Assembly (NCBI GenBank): GCA_016926795.1
Contig: JAFGNW010000031.1
Location: 1-40,330, forward strand
Direction: 5' to 3'
Length of the DNA: 40,330 bases
DNA from: Candidatus Zixiibacteriota bacterium
GTDB taxonomy: Bacteria; Zixibacteria; MSB-5A5; GN15; FEB-12
Shown: positions 7,368 through 32,116 of the stretch, piece by piece
How positions within the stretch are numbered: the first letter of the stretch is position 1
Layout of the letters: every line of letters starts with the position of its first letter
The notes under the pieces: model-generated
The model's database searches: none
The model's input: the letters and a program-made list of their open reading frames with translations, nothing else
Told to the model about the DNA's origin: nothing
Position numbers and translations under genes: made by a program

Positions 7368-7476
7368 AAAAATATAACTCATTGTGCTACTATAAGTTGA
7401 GATTGGCGCCTTATGTCTACCATAAAAAAGGCAGTCAAAATGGCGTACATGCTGGCAGAATGGCAGTAAAAAGAAT

Positions 7477-7506
7477 GCCTTAATGACTGTCTACTGTCAT
7501 TAAGGC
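7477..7506 (-). terminator. Rho-independent terminator after the HEAT-repeat gene
   Basis: GCCTTAATGAC / GTCATTAAGGC is a perfect 11-bp stem with an 8-base loop, followed on the minus strand by ATTCTTTTTA. It stands 19 bp after the stop codon at 7526 and closes the three-gene unit that starts near 13.7 kb. Confidence 0.8.
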
Positions 7507-7525
7507 ACTCTTAATATTGATAATT

Positions 7526-9742
7526 CTATTTGCGGTCTAAAATATCGGTGATAGCCTTCTGGACCGGTGAATTTTTGAAAAATATTTTTTGCGTGGTGGA
7601 CATATTGTCCTGGTAGTTCTTTATGCTCGACAGGGACTTATCATCGCCGAGCTTACCCAGAGCTTTAATTATAGCCAATCGGAGTTCATCTTTGGAAATT
7701 CGGCCACCGGTGATATTTGACAGTTCTTCCGGGTCTTCGAGAAGCCGGGTCAAAAAGGTGCCGGCATCCCGACCGCCGAGCTTTCCGAGCACGGCGACAA
7801 TACGCGGGGCATCGGCAGGATTGCGTTTGGCGATATCTATTAATAAGGGTGTCGTTTCCTGGTTACCGACAATACCGATGGCGTTGATAGCACTGGTACG
7901 TATTTCCTGTACGGGGTCCTCGGCCATGAGAATTAGCAGGTCGATAGCTTCCTCGCCGGAGATTTTTTCCAGGGCGGCGACTATTTCGCGCCGAACCCGG
8001 ACATCGTTATCGGCGATTCGCAACCGAAGCGGTACCAGGCCTTCCTCATCGCGAAGCGACCCCAGCACGAAAATGGAATTGCGCACCACGTACCATTTGT
8101 TGTCGGGCAGTTCATGGCGGTCAACATCCCGGTCGAACCAGGTATCGTCCATTATGATGCGCGAGAAGACGCGCAGCGAAGCCTTACCCAGTTCCGCAAG
8201 GATACGCAGCGACTGCTGGCGAATCTGGCGAATCGGGTGAGAAATTATTTGCGACAGGGCAAAAGCTATTTCCTCCGAACCGATAGCTATCAAGACATCC
8301 CGGATATAATTGGCGGTTTCATGGTTGCCCTTAATCATGGTGTTTATTAATTGATCGATGATATCCTTCCGGTTAATACTTTCGAAGGCTTTCTTCACGG
8401 TCATGGAATCATAGATAGTGACACCTTTGCTGATCTGGCGCCGCATGGCCATATTGCCAGTCAATTTGGCCATCAGGTCAAAACGTTCCTCGCGGCGGCA
8501 TTTCTCGAAAAGCTGCCAGATGAATTCCGAGTATTCATAAGTCTCGCGTTTGGTCGCCAGGCGGGTGACGACATCGTTAACGAGGCTGTCGAAAAGGCTG
8601 CGGTCGATATCGGCTTTGAGCTGCTCGGTGATATTCAAGAGAATGCCCAGTGCTTTCTGGCGATACTGGGGGTCGGCGTTGCTCATGTAATCCATCAGAT
8701 GGCAGACCACTTCGCTGGCCTTACCCTGCTGGCCGGTTTTCAAAAGCCGATAGAAAGCATCGGTAAATTCCTCGGAATCGTGACCTTCGCTGTCGGGCGC
8801 GAAATATTCCTCCAGCAAACCGTCGATACGATTTCGCGAACTGATTCTGATTTTACCCGTTTCCGTCTGGTGTTCGTCAAGCCCCCCCTGGTCGATAATC
8901 CTTTGTTTGATGACGCCGTCAAGTTGCTCGACAATTCTCTCCCGGTCGGGGTGACCGGAAATTAACTTGAAGATCGAGGTAATCATACTGAAAGCCGCAG
9001 CTTTTTTACCCTCTTCGAACTCGGAATTAACCCGTTCAGCCAGCTCGGAGAGAATAGTCCTGATTTTATCGGACTGTATGACAGCCACTTTTTCCGGCAG
9101 GAGATAAGTGATTATTTCCGGGTGGAAATCGACAAATTTTTCCGTCAGGTAGTCCGGGTCAGCCTCTACAAAACTCACCAGGATCCTGATATCCTCACCC
9201 AGCTGGTCCAGGCAGAACTTTTTGACGGAGAAATCTCCCTCGACATCACCCCGGTACAATTTCCAGTTTTCGAAAAGCTGAAAAGCATGGGGCGAGTTGA
9301 CCTGAATGGTGTCGATACCTTTTTCTTCGAGAAAACGACTCAGTTGATAATAAGGGTCGCGCGGACTTACTCGACGGACGAATTGTTCGACGAATGCGGT
9401 CAGGTTTTCACGGGTCATATCCCGGTCGAACAACAGGGCGTTGATATCGCGCAGCTGCATAAACTGGATAATGTGGCCGTTGAAGACGGTGTCTTTCAGG
9501 CGAATATTGAGCAGGTAGAGGTTTCCCTGCTGAATATTGAAGTTAATGTATCTTTTGAAATAAAATATTTTGCCGAAATGGAAATACGGTTTGTCGAGCG
9601 CCTTGTCCGAGACCGGGTGTCCGGGGCCGTAGATAGACACTTTTTTGCAGGCCATGGCCAGTTCCCGCACCAGGGAATGGGCCATATCGCTGAGATTGGT
9701 TTTCAGGATAGCTTCATTGATCGGTTTGGATAGGTTTGTCAT
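7526..9742 (-). CDS. HEAT-repeat protein with an unrecognised N-terminal domain
   Basis: A 738-residue protein without signal peptide or membrane segment, so probably cytoplasmic. The C-terminal half (about 480-735) carries repeated helical pairs with HEAT/PBS-lyase signatures such as DNDVRVRREIVAALEKI, DPVQEIRTSAINAIGIV and ELRLAIIKALGKLGDDKSL. Such solenoids bind other proteins. The N-terminal part (about 1-330) is not a family I can name; it contains KKVSIYGPGHP at 33-43, a phrase seen in some bacterial signalling proteins. The gene overlaps the BamB-like gene by 29 bp and has its own GGAGAG before the ATG, so translation is probably coupled to an outer-membrane operon. A scaffold or regulatory role is inference only. 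Confidence 0.85.
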   Translation of the reverse strand: MTNLSKPINEAILKTNLSDMAHSLVRELAMACKKVSIYGPGHPVSDKALDKPYFHFGKIFYFKRYINFNIQQGNLYLLNIRLKDTVFNGHIIQFMQLRDINALLFDRDMTRENLTAFVEQFVRRVSPRDPYYQLSRFLEEKGIDTIQVNSPHAFQLFENWKLYRGDVEGDFSVKKFCLDQLGEDIRILVSFVEADPDYLTEKFVDFHPEIITYLLPEKVAVIQSDKIRTILSELAERVNSEFEEGKKAAAFSMITSIFKLISGHPDRERIVEQLDGVIKQRIIDQGGLDEHQTETGKIRISSRNRIDGLLEEYFAPDSEGHDSEEFTDAFYRLLKTGQQGKASEVVCHLMDYMSNADPQYRQKALGILLNITEQLKADIDRSLFDSLVNDVVTRLATKRETYEYSEFIWQLFEKCRREERFDLMAKLTGNMAMRRQISKGVTIYDSMTVKKAFESINRKDIIDQLINTMIKGNHETANYIRDVLIAIGSEEIAFALSQIISHPIRQIRQQSLRILAELGKASLRVFSRIIMDDTWFDRDVDRHELPDNKWYVVRNSIFVLGSLRDEEGLVPLRLRIADNDVRVRREIVAALEKISGEEAIDLLILMAEDPVQEIRTSAINAIGIVGNQETTPLLIDIAKRNPADAPRIVAVLGKLGGRDAGTFLTRLLEDPEELSNITGGRISKDELRLAIIKALGKLGDDKSLSSIKNYQDNMSTTQKIFFKNSPVQKAITDILDRK

Positions 9743-10874
9743 TTTTCTCTCCGAAACAAATTATTTTTCCCTTCTGGGTGACTGCGAACACCCGCCGCCC
9801 GTCGGTAACCGGCGCCAAAGCTATTGCCCCGGTCAACTGCCTTTCGTCCACCGGTGAGCCGTCCGAGGCTTTCAGCACAAACAGTTTCCCCGTCATGGTG
9901 CCGGCGATGACGAATTCGCCGACGGCAATCGGGGAAGCCTTGATTACCTCGCCGGTTTCAAAACGCCACAGCTCGCGTCCGGAGGCAGCTTCCAGAGCCA
10001 CCAGGCCGCCGCCGCTGTGCCCTATAAACAGCCTCTCCCCCGCCAGTACCGGGGAATTCCAGATTGGTCCGGAGAGTTTAACCTGCCAGACGGATCGGCC
10101 GTCAACGGGGTCATACGCGCTGACATGGCCCGTAATATCCGCGGCATAAACCAGCTTGTCCGCGATAACCGGACTGGCCAGCGGTCCGGGAGCTTCGATA
10201 CGATAAAGCTCGCGACCATTGGTTGCCGAAAGGACGTAAAGCTTACCGTCGACTCCGGGCTGAAAAAGCTTCCCGTCCCGGTAAGAAACCGGGGCGACAA
10301 TTCTGCCTTCAGTATCAGCCTGCCAGAGCAGTCGGCCGTCGACGATATCAAAAGCGGCTATTAAGCCTTCCCCGGAACTGATAATTAAGCTGTTTTCTAA
10401 TATTATCGACCCGGCAGCGGCATCCTTTACATGCCGTTTCCAGAGCAAATGATTATTTAACAGGTTGATACAGCGAAGATAATCCTTCCGGGGGGCAAGG
10501 GAATAATATGCCAGAGAGTCTTTTATAACCAAACCGGTTTGGGGTATCCCTTTGCATTTAAGTTTGCCGAGATACTCACCGGTAAATATATCGTAATACC
10601 TTATTTTTTTCTTGGTATCGGGATAAACCAGGATATTGTAATAAATCGTTACCGGCCCGGCCGGTTTGCCGGTTGTCGAGGTTTCCCAGAGAATATTCAG
10701 CTTACCGTTGAAAGAACCGTTTTCAAGCGTTCCGGAAGCTGCCCGGTCACCGTGATAGAAAGGCCAGGCTGAAGGCTGCTCCATAGCCTCATGTTTCAGC
10801 CGATAATTACTACTACAGCCAAAAGCCAGTAACAGCACCAGAAGAAGAGTGGGTACAATTATCCGTTCAGCCAT
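9714..10874 (-). CDS. BamB-like beta-propeller lipoprotein (PQQ repeats)
   Basis: From the ATG at 10874 the protein has 386 residues. It begins with a lipoprotein signal peptide, MAERIIVPTLLLVLLLAFGC, with the lipid-bearing cysteine at 20. The rest is an eight-bladed-type PQQ propeller with repeats such as GKLYVLSATNGRELYRIEAP, GHVSAYDPVDGRSVWQV, GGLVALEAASGRELWRFETG and GKLFVLKASDGS. This matches BamB, the BAM accessory lipoprotein, and similar quinoprotein-like propellers. Start choice: an ATG four codons upstream exists, but the chosen ATG overlaps the stop of the barrel gene as TAATG and leaves an ideal signal peptide. The pairing with a BamA-like barrel supports an outer-membrane role. 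Residues for true PQQ binding were not identified. Confidence 0.85.
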   Translation of the reverse strand: MAERIIVPTLLLVLLLAFGCSSNYRLKHEAMEQPSAWPFYHGDRAASGTLENGSFNGKLNILWETSTTGKPAGPVTIYYNILVYPDTKKKIRYYDIFTGEYLGKLKCKGIPQTGLVIKDSLAYYSLAPRKDYLRCINLLNNHLLWKRHVKDAAAGSIILENSLIISSGEGLIAAFDIVDGRLLWQADTEGRIVAPVSYRDGKLFQPGVDGKLYVLSATNGRELYRIEAPGPLASPVIADKLVYAADITGHVSAYDPVDGRSVWQVKLSGPIWNSPVLAGERLFIGHSGGGLVALEAASGRELWRFETGEVIKASPIAVGEFVIAGTMTGKLFVLKASDGSPVDERQLTGAIALAPVTDGRRVFAVTQKGKIICFGEKNDKPIQTDQ

Positions 10875-13681
10875 TAAAAATTCCACCCGAAAAAGAAGTC
10901 AAAATCGGTTGCGGAGCTGATGGTTTCGAAATCGGTAGTCCGGCTGAAATCGAAGCGCAGAAGAACCACATAACCCAGACTGACCCGGAAACCAGCCCCG
11001 AAGGAGCCGTAGAACTGGTCGAACTGATCATCCCAGGCCGAGCCGAGGTCGAAGAAAAGAGCCCCGCGAATACCCCGGAAACCCAGCCCGCCGACCGGGA
11101 AATCAATCAGCAAATCATCGATAAGCGGGAACCGGAGTTCGTTGGAGACGAACAGGACGTTGCGGTTATAAAAAGCCCGGCGGTCAAACCCTCGAAAAGA
11201 CCAGCTGCCGCCGAGATAGATACGCTGGGGTTCGATTCCGGCCGAGGTATAGCCGAAAAGACGATTGGCAAAAGCCGAATACTGGCCCAGCCGCAGGTAA
11301 TGCCTTATATCGACCATAGCCAGCCGGTTGTAATTGCGGGTATCGCTTATGGAACTGGTCAAACCCAGCGACAGGTTGTACCTGCAGCCCTCGATAGGTC
11401 CGGAAATATCCCAGATAGAGTTGTCGTAAACCCAGCGGATATAATTGGTCATCAGAAATCCTTCCCGGTCAACCTGGCCGTAACGCCGGTCCTTGTTATA
11501 GTAGCGGGCGAAAGTGCTGAACTCGAGCCGTTGGAATTTCGACAGGGGGTAACTTAACAACGTCAGCAACCCGGCCTGTCGTTCATCGTAATACTGGTCG
11601 TAATCATTATAATATTCGTCGAACAGGTGAAAGGCCCCCAGCCCCCAGTTGACTCTCCTCTCCTTGTTGATATAAGTCAGGCCGAAGTTGGTCGAGGAAA
11701 GAAAATCGTCCTTGGTATCGGCGTTGTTGGCCAGCAGAAAATAAAAAGCATGATTGCCGAGCATATCTGATACGGCCGCCTGGAAACCGCCGATAGAGCC
11801 GTAAACCGGGTCGTAGGCTATCGATGACTGGGCGATATCAAAAGAAAATTCGGGGTTGTATTTAATAGTCGTTTCGTAATATTTCATATCGATAAGCTGC
11901 GGTTTCCAGCTGCTGATTGCCGCCGGCGGTGGCTGCTCGACTGCGACCGGATGGTTTTCCAGTTCCATCTGAAAAATCTGAAACGACATATCCTGATAGC
12001 CGGTATAGGTGAGGTGTCGACCGTCGGAAGTCAGGCGGGGGTCGAAAACTCCGGTGACATAAGTTGATTGCCGGGTCAAAACGCCGTCGTTGTCGAGGTA
12101 ATAAAGGTTAAAAGTTCCCTCGCGATTGGAACTGAAATAAAAACCGTTATCGACCGGTTCTGGTGTCTGGTCCATAAACTGACCGAAAGTGAGCTGGGTG
12201 ACGGTGCGTCCGGCGAGCTCAAGTTTGAATATGTTCAAGGCTCCCTCGCTGCCGCCGGCGCCCCGGTCCGAGGAGAAATAAATCGCCCGGCCATCATGGG
12301 AAAAGGCCGGGTCAACATCATAATAAAAGTCGTCGGTGACGGCCTGAAAAGTACCTTTCGTAATATCCAGAATATACAGGTTCGCCAACCCGACTTTCTT
12401 AACCCCGGTAAAGACCACCTGCTTTCCGTCGGGCGACAGGCGCGGGGAACGAATCGCCACCAGATCATCGAAATCATATTGCTTCGTAATTTTACCCGCG
12501 TTTAAATCATAAATATAAATGACATCGTTCTCTTTCGACTTGGAAACGAAAACTATCAACCCGGAATCGTTGGCGTCGATGCCGGAACGGGTCAGGTAGA
12601 GCGACTCGAATCTGGCGGAGCGTTCCCCTTTGAGTAAGGTCTTAATACCTTTTTGCTCTTTCAATCGCGGCTTCATGTAGATTCCGGAATAACCCCGACG
12701 GTTGGCCTTGTAAACCAGCCAGTCAGCCGTACCGTGTCCGTCGTCCCATTGCACGGGCACTCCCTTGAGGGCAAAACCGCCCCGGGTCAATTGCTCCGAT
12801 TCCATTTTGGGCAGGTCCAGTTCCCCCAGTTCGGGAAAATATTTCTTCTTCAGGTAATACTGCCATTTGCGGGACAGTTCGATGATATTATCCCCGAGAG
12901 TGATTTCTATTATATCATCAAAGTTTTTCCCTTTGTGCCAATTTTCGAACAACAGTGTCAGTTTATCGGGACCGTAATAATCATCGATGAAGGCGCAAAC
13001 CGACTGCCCCAGCTTGTACAAGAAATAAGAACCGTTATAGATATACAGGTGGGATACGGGCACCAGGCGGTCGTTGAGGACCATATCTTTGATAAACATG
13101 TCGGCGTCGGTATCCCAGCCTTCCGACCAGAACTCGGCTATACCTTCGATAAACCACAGCGGCGGGTAGGGAAAACGAAGGCGCGCCTGGCGGCTGAAGG
13201 TATCTTCGAGCTTGGAAAAAGTAAAGACGTGCACCAGTTCGTGCTTGATGACATGGTAAAACTCGAAATAGGAGCCATGAAACGGCACTGCTACCCGACC
13301 CTTCATGAATTCGGTAAAACCGCCCACCGATTCGGGAATCAGGCTGGGCAGGATATTGGTCTGGGAAAAATAACTCGAAGCGGAATAAATAATAAGAGGT
13401 ATGCTCTTGTTGACTTCATGGTTGAATTTCACCGATAGTGAGTCGTACATATTCTCGGCAATACGGGCAGCGATGCGGGCAACTTCGGCTTCTTCCTCGT
13501 AAAAATATATCTTGAAATGCTCGCTCTCCATCACCTGCCATTCGAAATCGGTGTACTGGACCTTGTTGCGGCCGAAATAATACTGCCCGGAAGCCGTTTC
13601 AAAACTCACCAGGAGCAAAAGAAAGCCGACCAAAAACCCGAGCGGGCGAGCTGATAAATATTTTATACGAAAGCACTTCAT
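10874..13681 (-). CDS. Gluzincin-like peptidase / TolB-type propeller / BamA-like barrel fusion protein
   Basis: A large secreted outer-membrane protein, about 935 residues from the chosen ATG (an upstream ATG at 13744 would add 21). Domains in order: a signal peptide (MKCFRIKYLS... ending near FETASG), a peptidase-MA-like gluzincin domain with HELVH and, 28 residues further, the third-ligand motif EGIAE (168-172 and 200-204 counted from the upstream ATG), a PD40/TolB propeller (about 380-610; e.g. SPRLSPDGKQVVFTG, DPAFSHDGRAIYFSSDRG), and a C-terminal Omp85/BamA-type barrel (about 680-956) ending in the aromatic signal FFFGWNF. No POTRA domains are apparent. The zinc ligands look intact, so proteolysis is possible but unproven. 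The stop codon overlaps the next start (TAATG). The start is uncertain because neither ATG has a strong ribosome site. Confidence 0.85.
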   Translation of the reverse strand: MKCFRIKYLSARPLGFLVGFLLLLVSFETASGQYYFGRNKVQYTDFEWQVMESEHFKIYFYEEEAEVARIAARIAENMYDSLSVKFNHEVNKSIPLIIYSASSYFSQTNILPSLIPESVGGFTEFMKGRVAVPFHGSYFEFYHVIKHELVHVFTFSKLEDTFSRQARLRFPYPPLWFIEGIAEFWSEGWDTDADMFIKDMVLNDRLVPVSHLYIYNGSYFLYKLGQSVCAFIDDYYGPDKLTLLFENWHKGKNFDDIIEITLGDNIIELSRKWQYYLKKKYFPELGELDLPKMESEQLTRGGFALKGVPVQWDDGHGTADWLVYKANRRGYSGIYMKPRLKEQKGIKTLLKGERSARFESLYLTRSGIDANDSGLIVFVSKSKENDVIYIYDLNAGKITKQYDFDDLVAIRSPRLSPDGKQVVFTGVKKVGLANLYILDITKGTFQAVTDDFYYDVDPAFSHDGRAIYFSSDRGAGGSEGALNIFKLELAGRTVTQLTFGQFMDQTPEPVDNGFYFSSNREGTFNLYYLDNDGVLTRQSTYVTGVFDPRLTSDGRHLTYTGYQDMSFQIFQMELENHPVAVEQPPPAAISSWKPQLIDMKYYETTIKYNPEFSFDIAQSSIAYDPVYGSIGGFQAAVSDMLGNHAFYFLLANNADTKDDFLSSTNFGLTYINKERRVNWGLGAFHLFDEYYNDYDQYYDERQAGLLTLLSYPLSKFQRLEFSTFARYYNKDRRYGQVDREGFLMTNYIRWVYDNSIWDISGPIEGCRYNLSLGLTSSISDTRNYNRLAMVDIRHYLRLGQYSAFANRLFGYTSAGIEPQRIYLGGSWSFRGFDRRAFYNRNVLFVSNELRFPLIDDLLIDFPVGGLGFRGIRGALFFDLGSAWDDQFDQFYGSFGAGFRVSLGYVVLLRFDFSRTTDFETISSATDFDFFFGWNF

Positions 13682-13800
13682 CTTCAAAACCAGGTAACAT
13701 ATACCTCTATTTAATATAAACGATTTTCGACGGGGCATATCCATAAAATTAATATAAAAAACAATATCTTATAATTCGGTCATTTTCGCATAAAGTTAAG

Positions 13801-14790
13801 TCACTGGACAATGCCGGTTTCAAGGCCGCAATTCCGGCACTTCCCTCCCCGCACTCCTTCCGTTACAGTGTGATAACCGCTTCTCCGCACCAGCAAATAC
13901 CCGCATTCGGGACAGTAAGAATTGGAACCGTCCGGCAGTGCGACATTGCCGAGAAAAACATATTTTAGTTTCTTCCGGGCGATATCCTGTGCTTTAAGCA
14001 GGGTATCCGATGGTGTGGCGCCGGTATTCATCCGGTAATTGGGAAAATAAGCCGAAAAATGCAGCGGTATTCTATCCGACAGCGAGGCGATGAAATTGAC
14101 CAGTTCGCTCAATTCTTCCTCGGAATCATTTTTACCGGGGATTACCAGGTTGGTAATCTCAAGGTGCATATCGCTTTCGGCCATGCGTTTGATATTGTCG
14201 AGCACCGGCCGCAATTTACCTTTGCAGATTTTCCGATAAAACTCCGGACGCATCGATTTCAAATCGATATTGGCGGCGTCAAGCAACGGCAGGAGTTCCT
14301 CCAGCGGCTCCGGGCTTATATAACCGTTGGAAACCAGCACCGTCTTAAGACCTTCCCGTCGCAAAAGCGGGGCGGTATCCAGGATATATTCGTACCACAT
14401 CAACGGTTCGGTATAGGTATAAGCGACCCCGATGGAATTGTGACCTAAGGCGGTTTCGACTAGTTTCTCCGGCGACACATAAAAAGTAGAGGTTTTTCTC
14501 TGAGAGATAGTCCAGTTCTGGCAGTGCAGGCATTGAAAATTACAGCTGTTCGGCCCGGTGGAAAGAATATCCGCGCCCGGGTAAAAATGGTAGAGAGGTT
14601 TTTTCTCAATCGGGTCAACCGCCAGGGTAACCAGTTCACCATAGTTGTCTGTCACCAGTTCACCGCCGCGATTGAATCGGCTTTTGCAAATACCCTTTTG
14701 TTCGTCCCGCAAGCGGCAGTTGAAAGGACACAGGTGACAGATAACCCGGTTATCCGGTCGTTTTTCGTAATGTGCCGCCTCTTTTATCAT
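13801..14790 (-). CDS. amrS: AmmeMemoRadiSam-system radical SAM enzyme AmrS
   Basis: A 329-residue radical SAM protein of the PflA-like group. The SAM-cluster motif CNFQCLHC (CxxxCxxC) is at 83-90. The N-terminal cysteine set CHLCPFNCRL...GICKSR (18-35) and the phrases DPIEKKPLYHFYPG and GVAYTYTEPLMWYEY are typical of AmrS. The C-terminus is a zinc-ribbon-like segment with CPECG and CRNCG. The reaction of AmrS is not established. The family is named for its linkage with AMMECR1 and Memo proteins, neither of which is in this window. It starts one base after the stop of the heptosyltransferase-GmhB gene, so it is the last gene of the uppP unit. A pyruvate formate-lyase activase role is unlikely, as no glycyl radical enzyme is nearby. 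Confidence 0.9.
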   Translation of the reverse strand: MIKEAAHYEKRPDNRVICHLCPFNCRLRDEQKGICKSRFNRGGELVTDNYGELVTLAVDPIEKKPLYHFYPGADILSTGPNSCNFQCLHCQNWTISQRKTSTFYVSPEKLVETALGHNSIGVAYTYTEPLMWYEYILDTAPLLRREGLKTVLVSNGYISPEPLEELLPLLDAANIDLKSMRPEFYRKICKGKLRPVLDNIKRMAESDMHLEITNLVIPGKNDSEEELSELVNFIASLSDRIPLHFSAYFPNYRMNTGATPSDTLLKAQDIARKKLKYVFLGNVALPDGSNSYCPECGYLLVRRSGYHTVTEGVRGGKCRNCGLETGIVQ

Positions 14791-14791
14791 G

Positions 14792-16369
14792 TCATCTCTC
14801 TTTTACTATATATTTTACGGCCTCGAGGAGATTATCAAAAGCGATATTTTTATCATTTATAAGGGAAATTTTTATTTTCCGCTCGGTCTGGCAGCCGTAG
14901 CCCGTTCTTACCAGAAAGGAGTCAACTCCCAAAACTCGCCCCAGGTTAATATCCTTGAAGGTATCCCCGATAACCGCGGAGCGCCTTAAATCGACTCCCA
15001 GCGCCCTGGCGGCTTCTTCCGGCAGGCCGGCAGAGGGTTTGCGGCAACGACATTCATAAGCAAACTCACTGACCGTACCTTCGGGATGATGCGGACAATA
15101 ATAGAGACCGTCGATTTCAATCCCCTCAGCGCTGAGCATCTCCAGCAGGCGGGCGTTCATTTTTTCGACACTTTCAAGGCTGAAAAAGCCCCGCGCCACT
15201 CCCGATTGATTGGACACGATGATAATTTTAAAACCGTTTTCACGGGCTAATCTCAACGCTTCCATGGCCCGCGTTTCAAACTCGATTTTAGCTGGGTCGG
15301 ACAGGTAATCCTTATCGACAATGACGGTGCCGTCGCGGTCGATAAACAGGGCCGGATATTTATTTATGCCCGATTGCAGTATCTCGGCGGCCTGCTCGAA
15401 GACCGTTTCCGGTTCGATACGGGTGAAACAGAATCGTTTCTCCCGGTAACAGGGTTTTTTCCCGTGCAACGAGCAGGGGCGGCAGGGTTCGTCAACTTCG
15501 ACCACCCGGTCAAACAGCCCCCGGGGGGCAAAACCCAGCACGGGATGGGTCGGCCCGAAAACGGCCAGGGTGGGTGTGCCCACGGCCGATGAAAGGTGGG
15601 CCAGACCGGAATCGTTGGCTATGGTCAGTTCCGATTGTGCAATAATCTCTTTCAATTCCTCGACCGGGTAATCAACCAACTCAAAAAAGTCTTCTGCGGG
15701 CAGCCGCTCTTCGAGACTGGTTTTACCCATATCAGGGTTCAATACCGACCAGATAATTTTATAACCGAATTCCTCGTGCAGCTTGTAAGCCACCTCGGCG
15801 AAATTGTCAAGCCCCCACTGTTTGTTGGCATGCGCCGCACCGGGCGCAAAAAAGACATATTTATTTCCAGAAACAAACGATATCGAGTTGATTACCTTCT
15901 TCCGGCTGGTTCTGATAACCGGACGGCGGGCAAAGACCTTTCCTCCCAGCTGCCTGACAACATCGTTGTACAGGTCAATCGTATGCGGCCAGGACAGAGG
16001 AATTTGTTTCTTGCGAACGATATTAACCCGTTCCAGGCGCCGTTTGGGATATACCACGCAGTGATTTGAGGTAACCATTTTCCCGGCCAGCCAGGAACGG
16101 AAATTACCGTGTAAATCGACTATAGTGTCAAAATTATAATTATCCAGCCGGTTGAGCAGGCGGTAATATTCGAGAGTTCCGGCGTTATCCGTCAGGCTGA
16201 CAATTTCATCAATCCCGTCGAACATCGCCACCAGGTTTTTAAACCGCTCTTTGGTGAGGAATACAATGTGACTTTCGGGAAAATTTATTTTCAGATTCAG
16301 AATACAGGCCGAGGCCAGGATGATATCCCCTAGAGAGCTGAACCGGACAATTAAAAATTTCCTCTTCAT
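14792..16369 (-). CDS. Fusion of ADP-heptose heptosyltransferase (GT9) and heptose bisphosphate phosphatase (GmhB, HAD)
   Basis: A 525-residue fusion of two lipopolysaccharide-core functions. Residues 1-335 are a GT9 heptosyltransferase: start MKRKFLIVRFSSLGDIILAS, sugar-nucleotide motif NDSGLAHLSSAVGTP (252-266), and the late cysteine cluster CRPCS...CYREKRFC. Residues 339-525 are a HAD phosphatase of the GmhB type: nucleophile loop FIDRDGTV (D344, D346), VSNQSGVARG, the zinc ligands of CPHHPEG...ECRCRKP (C425 to C442), and GDTFKDI. GmhB dephosphorylates D-glycero-D-manno-heptose 1,7-bisphosphate on the way to ADP-heptose, the GT9 donor. Start choice: the ATG inside TGATG that overlaps the uppP stop; an upstream in-frame ATG would overlap uppP by 43 bp. 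Histidinol-phosphatase activity is an alternative for the HAD half. Confidence 0.92.
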   Translation of the reverse strand: MKRKFLIVRFSSLGDIILASACILNLKINFPESHIVFLTKERFKNLVAMFDGIDEIVSLTDNAGTLEYYRLLNRLDNYNFDTIVDLHGNFRSWLAGKMVTSNHCVVYPKRRLERVNIVRKKQIPLSWPHTIDLYNDVVRQLGGKVFARRPVIRTSRKKVINSISFVSGNKYVFFAPGAAHANKQWGLDNFAEVAYKLHEEFGYKIIWSVLNPDMGKTSLEERLPAEDFFELVDYPVEELKEIIAQSELTIANDSGLAHLSSAVGTPTLAVFGPTHPVLGFAPRGLFDRVVEVDEPCRPCSLHGKKPCYREKRFCFTRIEPETVFEQAAEILQSGINKYPALFIDRDGTVIVDKDYLSDPAKIEFETRAMEALRLARENGFKIIIVSNQSGVARGFFSLESVEKMNARLLEMLSAEGIEIDGLYYCPHHPEGTVSEFAYECRCRKPSAGLPEEAARALGVDLRRSAVIGDTFKDINLGRVLGVDSFLVRTGYGCQTERKIKISLINDKNIAFDNLLEAVKYIVKER

Positions 16370-17142
16370 CAGAGAAAAAGATACAGTCCTACCAGCCCGA
16401 TGGCAAAACAATAATAGCTGAAATACTCAAATTTTCCCTTTTTGATGGTCGTCAGAACGCCGTAAACGGCCAACAACCCCATAATAAAGGCCATAATAGC
16501 GCCGACGAAATACTGACCGTAGAGGGCACCGTCAAGGGCCAGCAGGTCCTTGAATTTCAAAACGGCTGCGCCGCCGATAGCCGGTACGGCCAGCAGGAAG
16601 GAAAACTCCGCCGCGGTCGAGGGTTTCACTCCTGAGTACAGACCGAAAGCGATGGTCGTCCCCGAGCGGGAAATACCCGGAAAAATAGCCAGAGCCTGAC
16701 CTATACCCATAAACAGTGCCGATGACAGCTTTAGCGGTTTTTCATCCTGTTTGATAAAGCGGGTCAGGAGTAAAATAACACCGGTGACCAGGAGCATAAC
16801 CGAGGTCAAGGCCGGGTTGGAGAAGGCTCTTTCAAAAAAATCCTCGAGCAGGAAACCGACCAGGCCGGCCGGGATAGTCCCGAGAATCAGGAATCCGATT
16901 ATTTTTCGTTCCTCTTTCATTTCAGCGACAAACAGCGATTGCACCAGACGGTAAATTCTCCCCCGGAAATAAACCAGCACCGACAGCAGCGTTCCCAGAT
17001 GCACGACTACCTCGAACGATACGCCCGGGTCGGTAACGCCCAGTATTTCCTGGGCAAGGACCAGATGCCCTGAGGACGAAACCGGCAGAAACTCGGTCAG
17101 GCCCTGTAAAATCCCCAGTATGACAGCGTCGAGATAAGACAT
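16369..17142 (-). CDS. uppP: Undecaprenyl-diphosphatase UppP (BacA family)
   Basis: An integral membrane enzyme of 257 residues that dephosphorylates undecaprenyl diphosphate to recycle the lipid carrier for peptidoglycan and O-antigen; its loss or gain affects bacitracin sensitivity. Both signature motifs are present: GLTEFLPVSSSGHLVL near the N-terminus (residues 15-30) and FPGISRSGTTIAFG in the middle. About eight hydrophobic segments are visible. The start MSYLDAVILGILQG fits the family. It is the first gene of a unit with the heptosyltransferase-GmhB fusion and amrS. A terminator hairpin ends only 5 bp before its ATG, so its ribosome site would lie in the stem on read-through mRNA. A separate promoter was not located. 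Confidence 0.96.
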   Translation of the reverse strand: MSYLDAVILGILQGLTEFLPVSSSGHLVLAQEILGVTDPGVSFEVVVHLGTLLSVLVYFRGRIYRLVQSLFVAEMKEERKIIGFLILGTIPAGLVGFLLEDFFERAFSNPALTSVMLLVTGVILLLTRFIKQDEKPLKLSSALFMGIGQALAIFPGISRSGTTIAFGLYSGVKPSTAAEFSFLLAVPAIGGAAVLKFKDLLALDGALYGQYFVGAIMAFIMGLLAVYGVLTTIKKGKFEYFSYYCFAIGLVGLYLFL

Positions 17143-17190: not shown

Positions 17191-17826
17191 TTACAGAACG
17201 TTATAATCGATTCCGAAAAAGAGACCATCGTTACCGTCGAGCTGAAACTCACCGTACAATTTTATCAGGTCCGAAACTTCGAAACAGACCCCACCGTTAA
17301 AACCGAATTTCAATTCCGACTCGGAACCGCCGCCATCGGGGCTGTAATGCTCCATGCGCAGATTGAACCGGGCATAAGGCGCCAGGATTTTGCCGCTGGA
17401 GGTTTCAAACGGATAGGAACCGATAACCATCGCCCCAATTTCAAAAACCGAGCCGCCTTCGAAATCGATATATTCCAGAAAACCGCCGGGCGCCAGGTCG
17501 AACGGATTATCGGGATCTTCCGCGATACTGAGCATCTGGTATCTGAAATCGCCGCCGAGAACCAATCCGGCATCTCCGGCGTCGGGGTCATAAATGCCGA
17601 GTCTAAGGCGGCCGTTGGTATAGGCAGACAAACCGTAATCGAAACTTCCGAAAAAGCTGGTGGCATTATCCCCCAGGCCGATGCCGCCGCCCAGGTATCC
17701 CTTGCCCTGCCCCAGCGCTTTCGCTGTCGTCAGACATCCGAAAGCGGAACCAGCGGCGTCGATAGCCAGGACATTCCCGGTCAAAAAAATTGCTGTTGCA
17801 AATACGATGATGATTACTTTTCTCAT
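17191..17826 (-). CDS. Predicted outer-membrane beta-barrel protein, unknown function
   Basis: A 211-residue protein with a clear signal peptide, MRKVIIIVFATAIFLTGNVLA, with likely cleavage after VLA. The mature part is rich in Gly and alternating polar/apolar stretches (e.g. GKGYLGGGIGLGD, GRLRLGIYDPDAGDAGLVLG, LIKLYGEFQLDG), typical of a small outer-membrane barrel of eight to ten strands. The last residues (FFGIDYNVL) lack the usual terminal Phe, so the barrel call is tentative. I do not recognise a named family. It is transcribed away from the symporter gene and closed by a strong terminator at 17148-17172, so it is probably a single-gene unit. Confidence 0.7.
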   Translation of the reverse strand: MRKVIIIVFATAIFLTGNVLAIDAAGSAFGCLTTAKALGQGKGYLGGGIGLGDNATSFFGSFDYGLSAYTNGRLRLGIYDPDAGDAGLVLGGDFRYQMLSIAEDPDNPFDLAPGGFLEYIDFEGGSVFEIGAMVIGSYPFETSSGKILAPYARFNLRMEHYSPDGGGSESELKFGFNGGVCFEVSDLIKLYGEFQLDGNDGLFFGIDYNVL

Positions 17827-31288: not shown

Positions 31289-32116
31289 CTAGTTGCCTTT
31301 TGGCGTCGACCCGGACGGCAGGCGTTGCAACATCGCCTGATACTTACTCTCGCCGACCTTGAGGTTCGCAGGAATAGCGCCCATCTCGGCAATCTGACGT
31401 TGAGTGTTCTGGATACGTTCCTGCGTATCGGGGTGGGTACTGGAGAGCTTTTCGAATATATTCGGTTCCCCGCCTCCACCCAGGGCTGACAGCTTGTCGA
31501 ACATACCCAAACCCCTGTGCGGGTCATAACCGGCTTTGACCAGGTAATGCATACCGAAATAGTCGGCTTCGCGTTCGTTGTCCCGGGAATATTCGGAGAA
31601 AATAAGCATCATCCCGAGATTGATAGCCAGATTTAAGGCTTCCCCGGCACCTTCCCCGCCGAAAACGAGGTCGTAAGCGGTGGCCACTCCGAGCGCCGCC
31701 TGGAGGCGTTTGACACCGTGCCGGGCAACCACGTGAGAAATTTCATGAGCCAGCACCATTGCCATTTCCGCCTCATTGTCCATTTCCCTCAGAAGACCGG
31801 TATAGAAGTAAATAAATCCCCCCGGAAGGGCAAAGGCGTTGACCTGGTCCGATTCAATGACCGTAAAATGATATTCGATATCCTTACGGTCACTTATTTT
31901 GGCGATATTCTGGCCCACCTCGTTCAGATAGTTTTGCCAGACGGTATCGGCCAGGACCTTTTCGGTCTGAGCCAGTTCGTCGGCTATGCCCTGCCCGATA
32001 CTCACTTCCTGGCTGGTGGGGATGACAATAAACGATTTTTTACCGCCGGGACCGGTGGTGGCGCAGGCAAGAATCAAAGCCGCACTTATTACAATGAACG
32101 TCCGAAATCTTTTCAC
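31289..32116 (-). CDS. M48-family zinc metalloprotease, lipoprotein
   Basis: A 275-residue envelope protease. The signal peptide ends in a lipobox LILAC with Cys18. The catalytic zinc motif HEISH is at 124-128 (VLAHEISHVVARHG). The third ligand is in NEREADYFGMHYL (the E of READ), as in the LoiP/YcaL and BepA groups. GFIYFYTGLL before the motif is also typical. Relatives degrade misfolded outer-membrane proteins, often next to the BAM machinery. No TPR domain follows, so it resembles LoiP more than BepA. The start is GTG, preceded by GAGGGAA. It is the last gene of a unit with the TPR, GH57 and small membrane-protein genes. Confidence 0.92.
   Translation of the reverse strand: MKRFRTFIVISAALILACATTGPGGKKSFIVIPTSQEVSIGQGIADELAQTEKVLADTVWQNYLNEVGQNIAKISDRKDIEYHFTVIESDQVNAFALPGGFIYFYTGLLREMDNEAEMAMVLAHEISHVVARHGVKRLQAALGVATAYDLVFGGEGAGEALNLAINLGMMLIFSEYSRDNEREADYFGMHYLVKAGYDPHRGLGMFDKLSALGGGGEPNIFEKLSSTHPDTQERIQNTQRQIAEMGAIPANLKVGESKYQAMLQRLPSGSTPKGN

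Follow-up and report, generated by a model that had tools for sequence, protein, structure and literature searches.

Introduction

Most of what is known about outer-membrane (OM) assembly comes from Proteobacteria and, more recently, from Bacteroidota. Omp85 proteins in general are assembly or translocation factors according to main-text passages of Heinz and Lithgow 2014 (PMC4104836). In BAM, BamA combines N-terminal POTRA domains with an Omp85 barrel that carries the loop-6 RGF/Y motif, and it is partnered by the propeller lipoprotein BamB, which in E. coli docks on the POTRA domains (BamB-BamA POTRA structures 4xga and 4pk1). For LptD, the zinc peptidase BepA, a separate M48 protein with TPR that acts on BAM, has a promoting as well as a degrading role, so that a peptidase docked there can help barrel intermediates or destroy them (PMC8423444).

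Two kinds of Omp85 protein depart from the BamA plan in ways that matter here. The same passages describe a WD40-Omp85 subfamily, in which a TolB-like propeller is present, POTRA domains are missing and the architecture is reminiscent of a BamA-BamB fusion, as well as a 'Metallo' Omp85 group with a different domain, PF00149 (PMC4104836). In the patatin-Omp85 proteins PlpD and FplA, a patatin lipase and a POTRA domain are fused N-terminally to the barrel, and the enzyme domain of PlpD stays in the periplasm (PMC11116518).

Here, we analyse a locus in a stretch of 40,330 nucleotides (the window; contig JAFGNW010000031.1 of assembly GCA_016926795.1) from a Candidatus Zixiibacteriota bacterium, which encodes an Omp85 protein with its own zinc peptidase domain and propeller, referred to as GPB, followed by a BamB-like lipoprotein and a HEAT-repeat protein (Table 1). 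The GPB family is near-universal in Zixibacteria and has related proteins in many other phyla. If one chain unites an Omp85 barrel with a peptidase, it would offer a simple way to study how insertion is balanced against proteolysis and whether POTRA domains are required.

Table 1. Coordinates of the genes, domains and motifs of the GPB locus in the window
Feature	Position	Strand	Remarks
GPB gene	10874..13744	-	956 aa; peptidase-propeller-Omp85 protein
GPB signal region, residues 1-53	13586..13744	-	unconserved; predicted hydrophobic helix 28-46
GPB MA-clan (gluzincin-type) zinc peptidase domain, residues 54-305	12830..13585	-	Pfam PF13485
GPB HELVH zinc motif, residues 168-172	13229..13243	-	H168, E169, H172 invariant
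GPB EGIAE, residues 200-204, third zinc ligand E200	13133..13147	-	E200, G201 invariant
GPB TolB-type beta propeller, residues 316-605	11930..12799	-	PD40, PDB TolB profile match, Foldseek
GPB Omp85 16-strand barrel, residues 633-956, C-terminal Phe	10877..11848	-	PF01103, AlphaFold2, Foldseek
GPB GGSWSFRGF, Omp85 loop-6 motif, residues 845-853	11186..11212	-	between predicted strands 11 and 12
BamB-like propeller lipoprotein gene	9714..10874	-	386 aa; overlaps the GPB stop codon (TAATG)
Lipobox cysteine C20, BamB-like protein	10815..10817	-	invariant in 27 orthologues
HEAT-repeat protein gene	7526..9742	-	738 aa; same transcription unit as GPB, optional
Intrinsic terminator hairpin with U tract	7471..7512	-	-25.8 kcal/mol, z -8.47 (folding)

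Results

GPB is a predicted POTRA-less Omp85 protein with an intact zinc peptidase motif

In Pfam, GPB matched Peptidase_MA_2 (33.4 bits; cut-off 32.4), PD40/TolB repeats and, weakly, ShlB, while Omp85 PF01103 gave a borderline match of 24.1 bits (cut-off 24 bits); relatives outside Zixibacteria reached higher barrel scores (42 and 37.5 bits). No POTRA model matched GPB, and the N-terminal POTRA domains of BamA were thus not found. Among 28 orthologues, the HExxH residues H168, E169 and H172 together with the downstream Glu ligand E200 and the adjacent G201 were invariant, which places the N-terminal domain with the MA-clan zinc peptidases; also invariant was GGSWSFRG (residues 845-852) of loop 6, and the C-terminus FFFGWNF was nearly fully so. 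Mean pairwise identity in this set was 0.77 for loop 6, 0.63 for the peptidase, 0.62 for the barrel and 0.49 for the propeller, which puts loop 6 among the best-conserved parts of the protein.

The profile of these orthologues matched TolB in the PDB with an E-value of 1.6e-16. An AlphaFold2 model of the whole chain, of moderate confidence (pLDDT 74.6, pTM 0.68), contained 16 barrel strands over residues 633-954, and in Foldseek it matched TolB (E 1.6e-12) as well as BamA barrels (E 7e-11; TMt 0.61 for 7r1v). In total, these observations strongly support that GPB joins a zinc peptidase and a TolB-type propeller to an Omp85 barrel without POTRA domains. A preliminary description of the window had proposed these three parts, including the intact HELVH and EGIAE motifs and the lack of visible POTRA domains, and had named failure of the barrel part to adopt an Omp85 fold as evidence against its reading; the predicted structure does form this fold. 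Moreover, HExxH was present in 120/120 full-length homologous sequences, a set with 18 sequences from outside the phylum and eight paralogues; some entries of the whole set are the same gene from two collections. Because the motif is kept in homologues across phyla, catalysis by GPB is probably under selection.

The second gene encodes a BamB-like lipoprotein

The second protein, described beforehand as a BamB-like propeller lipoprotein, bears out this assignment: it has the lipobox LAFGC, matched PQQ_2 with 118 bits, and gave an AlphaFold2 model (pLDDT 93.5) that Foldseek aligned to BamB with TMt 0.72-0.83. This places it among propeller lipoproteins of the BamB fold; at 127.5 bits it is below the curated BamB equivalog cut-off of 285 bits (TIGR03300), and unrelated generic PQQ-type propellers match the profile as well or better. 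No second PQQ_2 match of BamB size occurs in the genome. The gene most likely starts with the ATG at 10874 inside the GPB stop codon, a GTG-started open reading frame listed at 10886 being merely the longest reading.

The three genes overlap and lie in a transcription unit that probably begins upstream

The three minus-strand genes overlap as previously stated, GPB and the BamB-like gene by one base and the BamB-like and HEAT genes by 29 bp, and the common terminator claimed for them was found as a stable hairpin. In a consensus terminator scan, sites were no commoner than in shuffled sequences and this hairpin was missed; it was shown by folding instead. Upstream of GPB, genes for a radical SAM protein, a heptosyltransferase-GmhB fusion and UppP are read in the same direction. 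Because these genes overlap or are closely spaced, the transcription unit probably begins upstream of GPB and has more than three genes, so that of the proposed three-gene operon the overlaps and the terminator stand but its upstream border probably does not. On the 3' side, the locus is followed by genes for Hsp20, DnaK, DnaJ and ClpB. Gene order around GPB is largely kept within the same taxonomic order.

GPB and the BamB-like gene are tightly coupled in Zixibacteria

GPB was matched in 130 of the 133 Zixibacteria genomes, including 79 of the 79 good ones, and the BamB-like protein in 119/133. Among the 118 genomes with a listed place of GPB, 110 have the BamB-like gene directly 3' on the same strand; in the eight exceptions, the two matches are on different contigs (four genomes), the BamB-like match is missing (three) or it lies elsewhere (one). 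Of 27 inspected Zixibacteria junctions, 25 are a T(A/G)ATG stop/start overlap, the remaining two having TAGTG and TGATTG, respectively. As the genomes share ancestry, the counts are not counts of independent events.

The HEAT protein matched HEAT_2 repeats (79 bits), and apart from these repeats nothing else in the genome matched it; no signal peptide was seen by eye, and the protein looks cytoplasmic. Its gene adjoins the GPB/BamB-like pair in 48 of 74 named Zixibacteria loci with an adjacent BamB-like gene. Where the locus leaves room to see it, it is present in 36/51 cases and missing from 15/51, and it does not lie beside the pair in the five genomes of other phyla that have the pair. This distribution speaks strongly against the HEAT protein being a core component of the machine, which the preliminary description had made it; of the three-gene order, it is the pair that is kept across the phylum and in five genomes beyond it.

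The pair occurs in other phyla and may have a single origin

The GPB profile had matches at 1e-30, some with partial coverage, in 50 of 156 sampled genomes outside Zixibacteria, and full-length homologues in other phyla rule out that GPB is restricted to Zixibacteria. Eighteen strong homologues from 17 of the outside genomes contain HExxH in 18/18 and RG(F/Y) in 16/18 cases. Five of these genomes have a BamB-like gene directly 3' of the GPB homologue (L174, L175, L176, L177 and L180); among the other 13 fetched homologues, 12 are without a BamB-like neighbour and one ends at a contig edge. In two outside genomes, G236 and G135, the best BamB-like match is on another contig than the GPB homologue.

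In a tree of 54 sequences, the five paired outsiders grouped with the Zixibacteria orthologues (SH-aLRT 89) in a clade that also holds L179, which has no BamB-like neighbour, and L178, at a contig edge. This grouping suggests, with modest support, that the pairing arose once. Separately, PQQ-type propellers seem to have expanded in a 3.0 Mb genome outside the phylum (G235), where the BamB-like profile has 81 matches, and a plasmid of Salinibacter ruber encodes a partial match to the peptidase-propeller part of GPB.

GPB is additional to a normal BamA

Most relatives searched have a second, longer protein of about 1,100 aa with GPB-type architecture. In the genome analysed here, this paralogue (1153 aa; L079:12973-16434, contig C230) is encoded directly 3' of murA, as in all four loci inspected, which include L080, L083 and L086. 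The Zixibacteria paralogue forms a separate deep clade in the tree and has no BamB-like neighbour. Since it shares this feature with 12 of the outside homologues, the peptidase-propeller-Omp85 fusion can, judging from gene content, work without a BamB-like partner.

The preliminary description had also raised the question of whether the genome has a normal BamA with POTRA domains. Such a BamA, with five POTRA domains, is encoded beside Skp and LpxD; the genome also has a BamD-like protein, two TamA-type proteins that adjoin large proteins, one of which was confirmed as TamB, and a patatin-POTRA-Omp85 protein of the PlpD type (L090:12931-15543, contig C244). GPB is, therefore, a machine additional to the normal BamA, and the presence of BamA-Skp-LpxD and the BamD-like protein rules out that it replaces a missing BamA. 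Similarly, the genome has M48 peptidases, which weakens the idea that GPB replaces BepA.

Discussion

The GPB pair resembles BamA/BamB in its Omp85 barrel with the loop-6 motif and in its propeller lipoprotein partner; unlike BamA, GPB lacks POTRA domains and has its own zinc peptidase and propeller. In being POTRA-less with a TolB-like propeller N-terminal to the barrel, it has the architecture of WD40-Omp85, for which main-text passages of the 2014 paper mention neither a peptidase domain nor a BamB-like partner (PMC4104836). GPB shares with PlpD and FplA an enzyme fused N-terminally to the barrel, with a zinc peptidase and a propeller in place of the patatin lipase and the POTRA domain. Finally, it resembles BepA in that a zinc peptidase of the HExxH type would work at the periplasmic face of an Omp85 barrel, as shown for BepA and proposed for GPB; the BepA peptidase is a separate protein whereas the MA-type domain of GPB is covalently fused to the barrel. 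Thus, the earlier statement that no described system has this set is correct in part: POTRA-less propeller-Omp85 proteins were already described in those passages (PMC4104836), and a search of largely open-access journal papers found none that mentions the intact peptidase on such proteins or their pairing with a BamB-like lipoprotein. What is new here, as far as these sources go, is the intact zinc peptidase and the strict BamB-like partner.

We propose that GPB and the BamB-like protein form a two-protein OM complex that acts on OM proteins from the periplasm by a BepA-like logic, a reading to which we give a probability of about 0.4. The N-terminal domains of GPB would lie in the periplasm because the predicted strand number of the barrel is even. 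The two propellers would replace the POTRA domains and keep substrates, i.e. unfolded or stalled β-barrel or surface proteins, at the seam of the barrel, the zinc peptidase would clip misfolded or unprocessed chains as BepA docked on BAM does, and the HEAT gene would be a co-transcribed neighbour outside the complex. The even strand number, the topology of PlpD and the BepA precedent argue for an OM-anchored peptidase on OM protein intermediates. The reading is further supported by the conserved HExxH, the adjacency in 110/118 genomes, the 25/27 overlapping junctions, the five outside pairs in one clade, the conserved loop 6, and a BamB-like protein that is the only one of its size and type in the genome. 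Against the complex, E. coli BamB docks on POTRA domains, which GPB lacks, and 12/13 of the other outside homologues as well as the paralogue have no BamB-like neighbour; against a role in quality control, the M48 peptidases could do the job of BepA. Beyond domains, motifs and gene coupling, we infer the mechanism of GPB: it probably checks or assembles OM proteins, and protease-coupled assembly or export, as envisaged in the preliminary description, may be the outcome. A more far-reaching version, which we regard as doubtful, makes GPB a second BAM-type machine that lacks POTRA domains and predates the phylum. Two propellers would then stand in for the POTRA domains, the protease would be part of the insertase, and folding versus destruction of OM proteins would be decided in one polypeptide.

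Other readings share parts of this evidence. The invariant RG of loop 6, the strict partner and the near-universal presence in Zixibacteria would also fit a dedicated assembly or export platform, i.e. an additional insertase of BAM or TAM type that serves a single surface-protein class, with the peptidase as a client-trimming maturation protease rather than a quality-control enzyme, and assembly or translocation is the general role of Omp85 proteins in the passages cited above (PMC4104836). No conserved client gene adjoins, however, the neighbours being UppP, heptosyltransferase-GmhB, radical SAM and heat-shock genes, and we hold this platform to be rather unlikely. Alternatively, the barrel might be an anchor only, with the enzyme acting on periplasmic peptides, lipoproteins or peptidoglycan-linked material and no protein being inserted or moved. 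TolB-type propellers act near Pal and peptidoglycan, and the proximity of the paralogue to murA in 4/4 loci points in the same direction. PlpD, moreover, is a precedent for an Omp85 scaffold that carries a periplasmic enzyme (PMC11116518). Nevertheless, a near-invariant loop 6 and a coupled BamB-like partner would be needless for anchoring, which makes a pure anchor unlikely.

Display of the peptidase on the cell surface after passage through the barrel, as in autotransporters, follows the model first proposed for PlpD and one of two proposed for the 'Metallo' Omp85 group in the same passages (PMC4104836); for PlpD it was overturned by experiment (PMC11116518), and a folded peptidase with a propeller would presumably not pass a 16-strand barrel, so that we consider surface display very improbable. 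Least probable of all is a three-part machine with the HEAT protein as an obligate scaffold: the overlapping genes, the common terminator and the frequent adjacency of HEAT to the pair speak for it, but many loci dispense with the gene, it is absent beside the pair in other phyla, and the protein appears to be in the wrong compartment.

Other genes in the window

Several further genes of the window are recorded here in their own right. The radical SAM gene directly 5' of GPB (13801-14790) encodes an AmmeMemoRadiSam-type enzyme (TIGR04337, 326 bits); many relatives have it in this position, and others have the locus without it. At 14792-16411, a single protein combines a heptosyltransferase with a heptose bisphosphate phosphatase of the GmhB type, and its gene overlaps that of UppP. 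A protein of 211 aa (17191-17826) without a Pfam or NCBIfam match adjoins UppP in most relatives. Finally, the M48 zinc peptidase encoded at 31289-32116, the N terminus of which resembles that of a lipoprotein (ILACA), is a separate candidate for periplasmic quality control.
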